Part shown: piece by piece, positions 37,378 to 40,846 of the stretch | Layout: each line of letters starts with the position of its first letter | Position numbering within the stretch: the first letter of the stretch is position 1 | Source: Oligoflexia bacterium | Lineage (GTDB): Bacteria > Bdellovibrionota_G > JANQFH01 | Assembly (NCBI GenBank): GCA_028277945.1 | Contig: JANQFH010000066.1 | Span: 1 to 64,000, forward strand | Reading direction: 5' to 3' | Length of the DNA stretch: 64,000 nucleotides | Notes under the pieces: model-generated | The model's database searches: none | Seen by the model: the letters and a program-made list of their open reading frames with translations, nothing else | Told to the model about the DNA's origin: nothing | Position numbers and translations under genes: made by a program

Positions 37378-38007
37378 CTATTGAAAGTGTCTCATGCTTA
37401 TGACGTTTTCGTATTGGTGTGTCAGCACCTCATTGGTAACAGGGTCTCTTGCGTCTGTTGCCACGGTTAACATCACACGTGCCATGCGAATATCTTTCAG
37501 TTGCTTAGGCGCAGTAATCTCTTGACCTCTTACCAGGAGATAGCTCAAGCGAAAATCGTAGACGTTAGTGATGTACGTCACATCCCCAGTTGACGTTGTA
37601 CGACGTATGGTATCCTTTCCTGGAATCGTTGGGTCTGTGTCGACGTATTCATAGGTTATGTCTTCATCGACATCATCAATATCACGATCGGCATTTAGAT
37701 CAGCAAAAATACGAATACGTTGAGACTCTGCAACACCAAAGGGAATGGGCACACCCATATCGTAGCCATGTACTCCTACAGGATTGGCGCCAGCACGTCG
37801 GATATCGCGTCCAATGACAAAAAACCCAATCGACCCGACAGTTTCTTTGTCGGCAGCAAGGCGCTGCGGCCCTACCGTGTCCTGCATGCGGCGATACAGA
37901 AATACCATGGTTGACATCATCATGGTTGCCATAACTAGAGCTACCAGGATTTCTGTTAAGGAAATGCCTTGATGGTTTGTTTGGCGTTGTTTTACAAGCA
38001 ACTTCAT
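37378..38007 (-). CDS. Minor type IV pilin, PilW-like
   Basis: The prepilin site is HQG/ISLTEILVALVMATMMM: Gly(-1), then a hydrophobic N-terminus with Glu at +5. PilD would cleave and methylate it, and the helix would enter the inner membrane. The C-terminal domain (DIRRAGANPVGVHGYDMG, TYITNVYDFRLSYLL) resembles PilW-type minor pilins that prime pilus assembly. No other pil genes are in the window; it is a lone copy with its own 250-bp upstream region. Confidence 0.8.
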   Translation of the reverse strand: MKLLVKQRQTNHQGISLTEILVALVMATMMMSTMVFLYRRMQDTVGPQRLAADKETVGSIGFFVIGRDIRRAGANPVGVHGYDMGVPIPFGVAESQRIRIFADLNADRDIDDVDEDITYEYVDTDPTIPGKDTIRRTTSTGDVTYITNVYDFRLSYLLVRGQEITAPKQLKDIRMARVMLTVATDARDPVTNEVLTHQYENVISMRHFQ

Positions 38008-38209
38008 GGTTAGACCGTTCCGTTGAAATTGCCGAGAGGTGCAGGTTCGCTATCTCTTCTAAAGATACTACTGGATCACGAAGATAGCTAGCTTCTGAGT
38101 TAACAAACATCGGACGGGTTCACGGGATGACAAAGGTAGAGATTATCGCCGCTTGCCATCGTAGTCAGCTCTACCCGTTAATTTTAACCCGTGCTTCAGA
38201 TTGAGATGA

Positions 38210-38251
38210 CAACGCCCACCGGCTTCGACATCAAGAAAACGGTGGGCGTTG
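38210..38251 (-). terminator. Strong hairpin just after the histone gene
   Basis: CAACGCCCACCG (38210-38221) and CGGTGGGCGTTG (38240-38251) are perfect 12-bp inverted arms with an 18-nt loop. The hairpin starts 8 nt past the histone stop codon on the minus strand. No T-run follows, so it may protect the mRNA 3' end or serve a Rho-type terminator rather than be a classical intrinsic one. Confidence 0.5.
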
Positions 38252-38258
38252 CAGATAC

Positions 38259-38507
38259 TTACATGCTGATAAAGTCGTGAGCGCGTACGGTCTTACGGCC
38301 GTTGGCTTTAGCACGGCTCGCGGATTGGTCCACTAACCAGTGTAGCCACATGTTGAGTCCGCTGATAGCATCACCGCCCGTGTTACAGCCGCGCTTTTTG
38401 AGTAGCGCCTTCACTTTGGAACCGACTACCAGCACTTCGCCAGTTTTCTTCGAACCACGAGTTGTTTTTCTCCTTGCTGCTGTCTTCTTTTTTGCCTTTC
38501 TTGCCAT
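38259..38507 (-). CDS. Bacterial histone-fold protein with Lys/Arg-rich N-terminal tail
   Basis: ATG at 38507 follows GGAGGAG; the longer frame to 38639 adds 44 residues without support. The 82-residue product has a basic tail (residues 1-22, Lys/Arg/Thr/Ala-rich: ARKAKKKTAARRKTTRG) and a compact helical core. Its VLVVGSKVKALLKKRGCNTG, GDAISGLN and RAKANGRKTVRAHDFI correspond to the alpha1, alpha2 and RTVxxHD(F/L) end of Bdellovibrio Bd0055-type bacterial histones. It should form dimers that coat or bend DNA. The unstructured tail is like that of H1/AlgP proteins rather than the tail-less Bdellovibrio protein. It is monocistronic with a strong 3' hairpin, consistent with high expression. Confidence 0.85.
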   Translation of the reverse strand: MARKAKKKTAARRKTTRGSKKTGEVLVVGSKVKALLKKRGCNTGGDAISGLNMWLHWLVDQSASRAKANGRKTVRAHDFISM

Positions 38508-38653
38508 GACTCCTCCATGGAAATATTTAGGGTTTAAAGTAATTTTCTTCGCCAATGGCGGTCGCAATATAGCAAGATTGCTGAGTAAAGGAAACAGTTC
38601 TTGCCAGCCATGACGGGGTATACAGAGAGGAAAAGACACTCTAAGATGAGCAG

Positions 38654-40846
38654 ATGACGGCGGAGCACCGCTTCGGCACCTTTAAGGGTGTCTACATTCC
38701 CAGTGTCCTGACGATCTTAGGCGTCATCATGTACCTGCGGCTTGGCTGGGTAGTTGGTAATGTCGGGCTCATTGGCAGTATCCTTATTATTACGCTCGCT
38801 TCCGCCATCACCTTTGTCACTGGTCTCTCCATTGCAGCCACGGCTACCAACATGCAGGTTCGTGGCGGCGGTGCCTATTATATGATTTCCCGCTCATTTG
38901 GTGTGGAGACCGGGGCTGCTATAGGCCTGCCACTCTACCTGGCGCAAGCGATTGGGGTCTCATTCTATATCGCCGGTTTTGCCGAATCCGTGCACTCGCT
39001 ACTGCCTGGGGTGCCAACACCCTGGATTGGTGTGGTCAGCCTCTGTGGTTTGGGAATTTTAGCCTATATTTCCGCAAACCTGGCGCTGAAGACGCAACTG
39101 CTCATCTTTGTCGTTATTCTCAGCTCACTGGTCTCGTTCTTCCTAGGATCGGCGCCACAGCCTGATCCTATGGTAAGCCCAACAGGGTTACCGAGAGAGT
39201 CTTTCTGGGTGGTTTTTGCTGTCTTCTTTCCAGCGGTGACCGGCATTGAGGCCGGCATCTCCATGTCTGGCGATCTCAAAAACCCAGCTCGCTCGCTACC
39301 GTTGGGGACGATTCTTGCGGTGATCAGTGGCTATGGCGTGTATATCGCCATTGCAATTTTTCTCTACGTTGTGGTTCCCCAAAACCTATTGCTTGAAGAC
39401 AGTATGATCATGCGCCGGGTGGCTGTCATTGGCGAGCTCATCTTACTAGGTGTTTGGGGAGCATCGCTTTCCAGTGCGTTAGGAGCGCTCTTGGGAGCGC
39501 CGCGCACCCTGCAGGCGCTTGCGCGGGATCATGTGGTGCCGAATTTTTTCGGCAAGGGTCATGGTGCCAGCGATATGCCACGTCTAGCGACAATGCTATC
39601 ATTTTTGATCGCCTTGACCGGGATTATCCTTGGTGATCTCAATGCCATCGCCGCGATTCTGTCGATGTTCTTTCTTACCAGCTACGGTTTTCTCAATCTT
39701 GCTGCAGGCATAGAAGGCTTGATCGGCAACCCATCGTGGCGTCCGAAATTCCGCACACCATGGCCTCTCTCTTTACTAGGAGCGCTCTCCTGTCTTCTAG
39801 TCATGCTGATGATCAATGCCGGCGCGACCATCATCGCCACTATCTTTGTGGTTGGCGTATTTCTTATCATGAGGAAACGGCGGTTGAACGTCGGCTGGTC
39901 TGATATGCGCCGTAGCATGCTCATGGCGCTGGCACGCTACTCCATCTATCAATTATCTCAGGCGGAGTCTGATCCAAGATCGTGGCAGCCTAATATTTTG
40001 GTACTCAGTGGTTCACCGAAAACAAGATGGTATCTGATTGAACTTGCCGACGCCATGACCCATGGCAAGGGTTTTTTAACCGTAGCAACGATTTTGACCG
40101 AAGATGATGTTGATGTGGATAGAAGAATGCAAATGCAAAAGTCGATCAGGGACTTTCTCAAAAAGCGTGCCGTACCAGCGCTGGTTGAAGTAGAGGTGTC
40201 CGCTACAAAGATCGAAGGTATGCAACATCTGGTCAACAACTACGGCCTTGGGCCAATTGCGCCCAATACCGTTATTCTAGGAGAGACAGAACAACAGGAG
40301 AACTATACCGACTATGTCAAACTGCTGATGACGATCTACCGTGCCAAGAAAAATCTTATCATTGTACGCGAGGGGTTTGAACCGGCAGCGCAGCAGGAGG
40401 CGAGCATCCATCGTCGCGATGGCAACATTGATATCTGGTGGGGCCGACAACGCCAGAATGCCGGCCTGATGTTGGCTGTTGCCTATATGGTGCAGACGAG
40501 TTCCGAGTGGCAGGGTGCCGAGCTAACCTTAAATACCACCGTAGCCGTAGAAGATGAGCGTGACAATGCTACTCGCTATCTAAACGACTACATTGCCAAA
40601 GGCCGGGTGCCAGCAAAGGTCAACGTCGTCGTTTCAAAAGAAGATGAAGACATCTTTCATACTATTCGTGCGCATTCAAGTGATGCCTCGCTGCTGTTCA
40701 TAGGGATGCGGCCTCCAGAGGAAGAGGAGTCTGTAGACGATTACTGTCGTTATTACCAAAGTATTCTGGCGCGCACCCAAGAGATGCCGCTAACAGCCAT
40801 AGTGGTGGTAGCAGAGGACATCAAGTTTAACGAGATTTTTGTCTAG
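38654..40846 (+). CDS. SLC12-type cation-chloride cotransporter (APC superfamily)
   Basis: The first ~440 residues have 12 hydrophobic helices. GTFKGVYIPSVLTILGVIMYLRLGWVVG is the SLC12 (NKCC/KCC) TM1 signature, and FAVFFPAVTGIEAGISMSGDLKNPARSLP the TM6 region. The last ~270 residues form a soluble domain (NILVLSGSPKTRWYLIELADAM, SDASLLFIGMRPPE) like the cytosolic SLC12 C-terminus. It probably couples Cl- with Na+ or K+ for osmotic or volume control. The ATG 38654 has no strong SD. Downstream lies a fold-back element. Confidence 0.87.
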   Translation: MTAEHRFGTFKGVYIPSVLTILGVIMYLRLGWVVGNVGLIGSILIITLASAITFVTGLSIAATATNMQVRGGGAYYMISRSFGVETGAAIGLPLYLAQAIGVSFYIAGFAESVHSLLPGVPTPWIGVVSLCGLGILAYISANLALKTQLLIFVVILSSLVSFFLGSAPQPDPMVSPTGLPRESFWVVFAVFFPAVTGIEAGISMSGDLKNPARSLPLGTILAVISGYGVYIAIAIFLYVVVPQNLLLEDSMIMRRVAVIGELILLGVWGASLSSALGALLGAPRTLQALARDHVVPNFFGKGHGASDMPRLATMLSFLIALTGIILGDLNAIAAILSMFFLTSYGFLNLAAGIEGLIGNPSWRPKFRTPWPLSLLGALSCLLVMLMINAGATIIATIFVVGVFLIMRKRRLNVGWSDMRRSMLMALARYSIYQLSQAESDPRSWQPNILVLSGSPKTRWYLIELADAMTHGKGFLTVATILTEDDVDVDRRMQMQKSIRDFLKKRAVPALVEVEVSATKIEGMQHLVNNYGLGPIAPNTVILGETEQQENYTDYVKLLMTIYRAKKNLIIVREGFEPAAQQEASIHRRDGNIDIWWGRQRQNAGLMLAVAYMVQTSSEWQGAELTLNTTVAVEDERDNATRYLNDYIAKGRVPAKVNVVVSKEDEDIFHTIRAHSSDASLLFIGMRPPEEEESVDDYCRYYQSILARTQEMPLTAIVVVAEDIKFNEIFV

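Follow-up and report, generated by a model that had tools for sequence, protein, structure and literature searches.

The window, a stretch of 64,000 nucleotides from an Oligoflexia bacterium, carries a histone gene on the minus strand at 38259..38507 (stop codon 38259-38261). Translation of this open reading frame from 38507 to 38259, including the stop, gives a protein of 82 amino acids, MARKAKKKTAARRKTTRGSKKTGEVLVVGSKVKALLKKRGCNTGGDAISGLNMWLHWLVDQSASRAKANGRKTVRAHDFISM, in which all the core motifs quoted in the initial annotation are present. It comprises a basic N-terminal tail (residues 1-23, 38439..38507, minus strand) and a histone-fold core (residues 24-82, 38262..38438, minus strand). 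Its calculated pI is 11.6 and its calculated charge +16.7. The gene is solitary. On one side lies a minus-strand gene (37378-38007) with a weak prepilin-like N-terminal motif (N_methyl, E 0.025, below the cut-off), and on the other a divergent plus-strand gene (38654-40846) encodes a permease of the SLC12/amino-acid permease type. Comparison of seven neighbouring genes with the loci of relatives revealed none in common with the window, and synteny among the relatives' loci was found only within one group of Elusimicrobia loci, among themselves.

The ATG is preceded, 2 nt upstream, by the Shine-Dalgarno sequence GGAGGAG (38510..38516, minus strand; ccatGGAGGAGtcATG), which had been noticed before and is real. 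Close to the core, the GTG at V25 is the sole alternative start in frame, and the sequence upstream of it contains nothing resembling a Shine-Dalgarno. Since the ATG has such a sequence and the GTG does not, the tail is very probably translated. If V25 were the true start, the tail would lie outside the protein, which would then begin near the start of its short-tailed homologues. In the alignment, the core of most close relatives is indeed preceded by no more than about 7-10 residues (MAKKMEP and similar), and the tail codons are more AT-rich than those of the core (G+C 43% versus 56%). Such a start, however, would ignore the strong ribosome-binding sequence and delete the N-terminus of MAKK/MARK type found in the short-tailed relatives, and tails with their own Shine-Dalgarno recur in other lineages; we regard it as extremely improbable. 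Thus, the objection foreseen in the initial annotation, untailed homologues combined with a downstream start, holds in part for the family, most of whose close members are short, but not for the window gene.

A hairpin (38209..38252, minus strand) begins 6 nt past the stop codon. It has been rightly described as strong, having 13 uninterrupted outer pairs, a folding energy of -28.7 kcal/mol and a z-score of -4.9. It has no U-tract and was not called as a terminator by intrinsic-terminator scoring. The hairpin as a whole occurs once in the genome. The idea of a special element was rejected, because hairpins at z < -3 trail 29 of 76 related histone genes; the structure probably serves as a common type of 3′ end or terminator.

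Searches of Pfam, NCBIfam, PADLOC and PHROGs with the window histone returned no family, and the assignment therefore relies on PDB matches, signature residues and a structural model. In a phmmer search of the PDB, HLp of Leptospira perolatii ranked first (E 2.7e-11) and HBb/Bd0055 second (E 1.2e-7). The AlphaFold2 model, a monomer built with 48 relatives, contains the three helices of the histone fold (29-38, 47-68 and 76-79), of which α3 is truncated to four residues. The block means of pLDDT are 93-96 over residues 31-80 and 57-62 over residues 1-20. The best Foldseek match was again HLp (TMt 0.95-0.96, rmsd 0.6-0.7 Å), while HBb scored 0.84-0.89 and the archaeal FtF histone HTkC 0.86. The model and the PDB matches bear out the earlier recognition of a bacterial histone with the α1-α2-α3 arrangement.

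According to PMC11390915, FtF histones form tetramers and conserve R48, N52, R54, T56 and D61, whereas dimers of the HBb type lack R48 and N52. All five residues are present in the window histone, as R65, N69, R71, T73 and D78; in the alignment, HLp has R, N, R, T and D at the same positions, and HBb has S, D, R, T and D. The three last residues (R71, T73, D78) make up the RxTxxxxD motif of FtF histones, helix 76-79 agrees with their α3 of 3-4 residues, and the DNA-binding lysines of α1 (K31, K33 and K37) are common to the window histone and HLp. One of the two patterns used in the genome scan that supplied most relatives was R[AT]K[AG]N, so that the search itself partly accounts for R65 and N69 being invariant in these proteins; this bias does not touch HLp, HBb or the relatives obtained by a separate genome search. 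A tree of the core, based on 57 columns, poorly supported in general and rooted by choice on HBb-type rows, placed the window histone among FtF relatives and separated it from HBb and from a second histone of the same genome by a branch with support of 85.

That second histone (G000:C10:105850-106044; L002 1489-1683) is the only further one in the genome, an assembly of 2.86 Mb that is 96% complete. It has no tail, and the interface pair is replaced in it by N and D, which places it in the HBb, or dimer, type. Its gene comes after one that looks PilZ-like by eye, and two histone classes are thus found in one bacterium.

The initial annotation took the core to be of the Bd0055 type, which would make the protein a dimeric, DNA-bending histone with an acquired tail. 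The truncated-α3 fold and the RKTV loop are shared with HBb, and both the sequence match and the structural match to it cited above are significant or close. Nevertheless, HLp is clearly ahead in sequence and fold scores, the tetramer-interface arginine and asparagine missing in HBb-type dimers are present in the window histone, and the genome already possesses a separate, true HBb-type histone that is tail-less. A tailed dimer of this kind is unlikely. The window protein is an FtF histone of the α3 type, and it is likely that it is closest to Leptospira HLp and forms a DNA-wrapping tetramer with a tail that contacts DNA.

The 22-residue basic tail ahead of the fold, reported at the outset, is genuine. 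Of residues 2-23, 11 are Lys or Arg and the other 11 are small or carry a hydroxyl group (A, G, S, T); Asp and Glu are absent. The segment is predicted to be unstructured and contributes +10.5 to the computed charge. Among the 20,280 overlapping 22-residue segments from window ORFs of at least 150 aa, the maximum was 10 Lys/Arg, so the value of 11 is unmatched among them. The likeness to H1/AlgP drawn previously does not extend to the long AKKPAAK-type repeats of linker histone H1 and AlgP-like tails: the window tail has no proline and no evident repeat in 22 residues. Repeats of this type do occur in the relative L044. Three of the four arginine codons of the tail are AGA/AGG, a share that is 20% across the genes of the window (p 0.03). 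As these codons are also enriched in the first 24 codons of the window's genes (22 of 73), this bias is only weak evidence for a recent gain of the tail.

According to PMC11390915, bacterial FtF histones commonly bear tails, most of which are positively charged, and the basic tail is therefore not a novelty. The search for tailed homologues proposed in the initial annotation found comparable or longer tails in several phyla. At least 12 residues ahead of the core with a net charge of at least +3 occur in 15 of 90 aligned sequences, the window histone included. The tails that most resemble or exceed that of the window belong to MAGs of Krumholzibacteriia (L044; 41 residues, +18), Bacteriovoracaceae (L042; 39 residues, +13) and Chloroflexi (L032; 22 residues, +10). 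On the core tree the tailed state calls for 11 changes, of which the well-supported branches require at least three. This indicates repeated gain or loss of the tail among these sequences, with a rough count because the tree is poorly resolved. Histone tails have been reported as easily gained and lost (PMC10919886), and the scattering of basic tails across phyla fits this view. The FtF histones L042 2908-3192 and L044 2884-3177 have K/R/T/A-rich tails of 39-41 residues, with P repeats in L044; they are more similar to H1/AlgP than the window tail and are better test cases for tail function.

Regarding the mechanism, HLp is tetrameric and has about 60 bp of DNA wrapped around it, and Hu et al. 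located the signature arginine and asparagine in a hydrogen-bond network of this tetramer (PMC12701072). By analogy with HLp, two handshake dimers of the window histone would probably be joined through two equivalent interfaces into a ring-shaped tetramer, with R65, N69 and R71 of one dimer probably facing the α3 end of the other. Around the basic rim of this tetramer, DNA of any sequence would be wrapped, over a length that is about 60 bp in HLp. The tail, unstructured and made up largely of Lys, Arg and Thr, most likely provides further electrostatic contacts of a non-specific kind, either with the wrapped DNA or with DNA nearby, a role inferred without direct precedent; such contacts may raise affinity and perhaps bridge DNA segments. 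The different mode of DNA binding suggested initially is likely as far as the contrast with Bd0055 is concerned, but its cause would be the FtF core rather than the tail.

The Lys/Arg/Thr/Ser/Ala composition is loosely reminiscent of H3 or H1 tails, and the tail might be imagined as a regulated signalling platform with acetylated or phosphorylated Lys and Thr, as in eukaryotic histones. The lack of recurrence of the seven compared neighbours at relatives' loci, the absence of an evident writer or reader among the identified neighbours, and a tail sequence that is unconserved among relatives (in the alignment and according to PMC11390915) make this very unlikely. The broader proposal that tails were gained repeatedly on FtF cores across phyla and act in a eukaryote-like way, by particle linking or modifications, beside HU and a tail-less histone, seems rather improbable too.

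The genome encodes four proteins of the HU/IHF family. Together with the tail-less HBb-type histone, this means that a sole or dominant chromatin role of the window histone is not implied. Histones were found in four of the five genomes examined from the same phylum. The FtF-type proteins of two phylum mates (G001 and G002) are 34-46% identical to that of the window, while its relatives in Elusimicrobiota, Myxococcota and Bdellovibrionota reach 67-74%. The higher identity with other phyla hints at horizontal transfer of the window histone but is no proof of it.

The viral collection contains three more distant relatives (31-50% identity), two of them weak, and a phage origin is unsupported by them. 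One viral contig of 64 kb (L099, IMG/VR) encodes an FtF-type histone 50% identical to that of the window over the core. The phylum mate G002 also encodes a histone with a cysteine-rich N-terminal domain (L017, G002:C173), very likely a zinc-finger histone of the ZZ type treated in PMC11390915. Tandem double histones with FtF-like motifs in their halves were observed in a Euryarchaeota MAG (L050), a bacterial MAG (L058) and a Myxococcales MAG (L078). They are natural fused FtF-like doublets, of which the passages on doublets and fusions in PMC11390915 make no mention.

The locus provides a clear tailed histone of the tetrameric class beside a tail-less histone of the dimer class and four HU/IHF proteins in a sparsely sampled bacterial phylum. 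Comparison of tail deletions in this family would probe tail function outside eukaryotes. The presence of HU/IHF proteins sets this genome apart from L. interrogans and L. perolatii, in which HU is reported to be missing (PMC12701072). HBb/Bd0055 of Bdellovibrio bacteriovorus (8CMP, 8FVX, 9EZZ) resembles the window histone in the short α3-type fold, the RKTV loop and the RD clamp, but it is dimeric, nearly tail-less and has S and D in place of R65 and N69. The archaeal HTkC of Thermococcus kodakarensis (9F2C) belongs to the same FtF fold class (TMt 0.86) at about 30% identity; archaeal FtF histones are generally without tails (PMC11390915). HLp (PDB 9QT0-9QT2) shares the fold (TMt 0.95, rmsd 0.6 Å), the truncated α3, the R/N/R/T/D signature and the α1 lysines. 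Its chain of 65 residues, however, has a core from residue 9 with few residues before it, whereas the window histone has 22 that are rich in basic ones, as well as W54 and W57 in α2, two tryptophans common within its subgroup, and a short extension at the C terminus, ISM. Tailed FtF histones have already been described: those of bacteria shown in Supplementary Fig. 13 of Schwab et al. (2024, PMC11390915) combine the same FtF core with a positive, unconserved N-terminal tail. No difference in kind was found, and the window protein differs from them in its particular sequence only.
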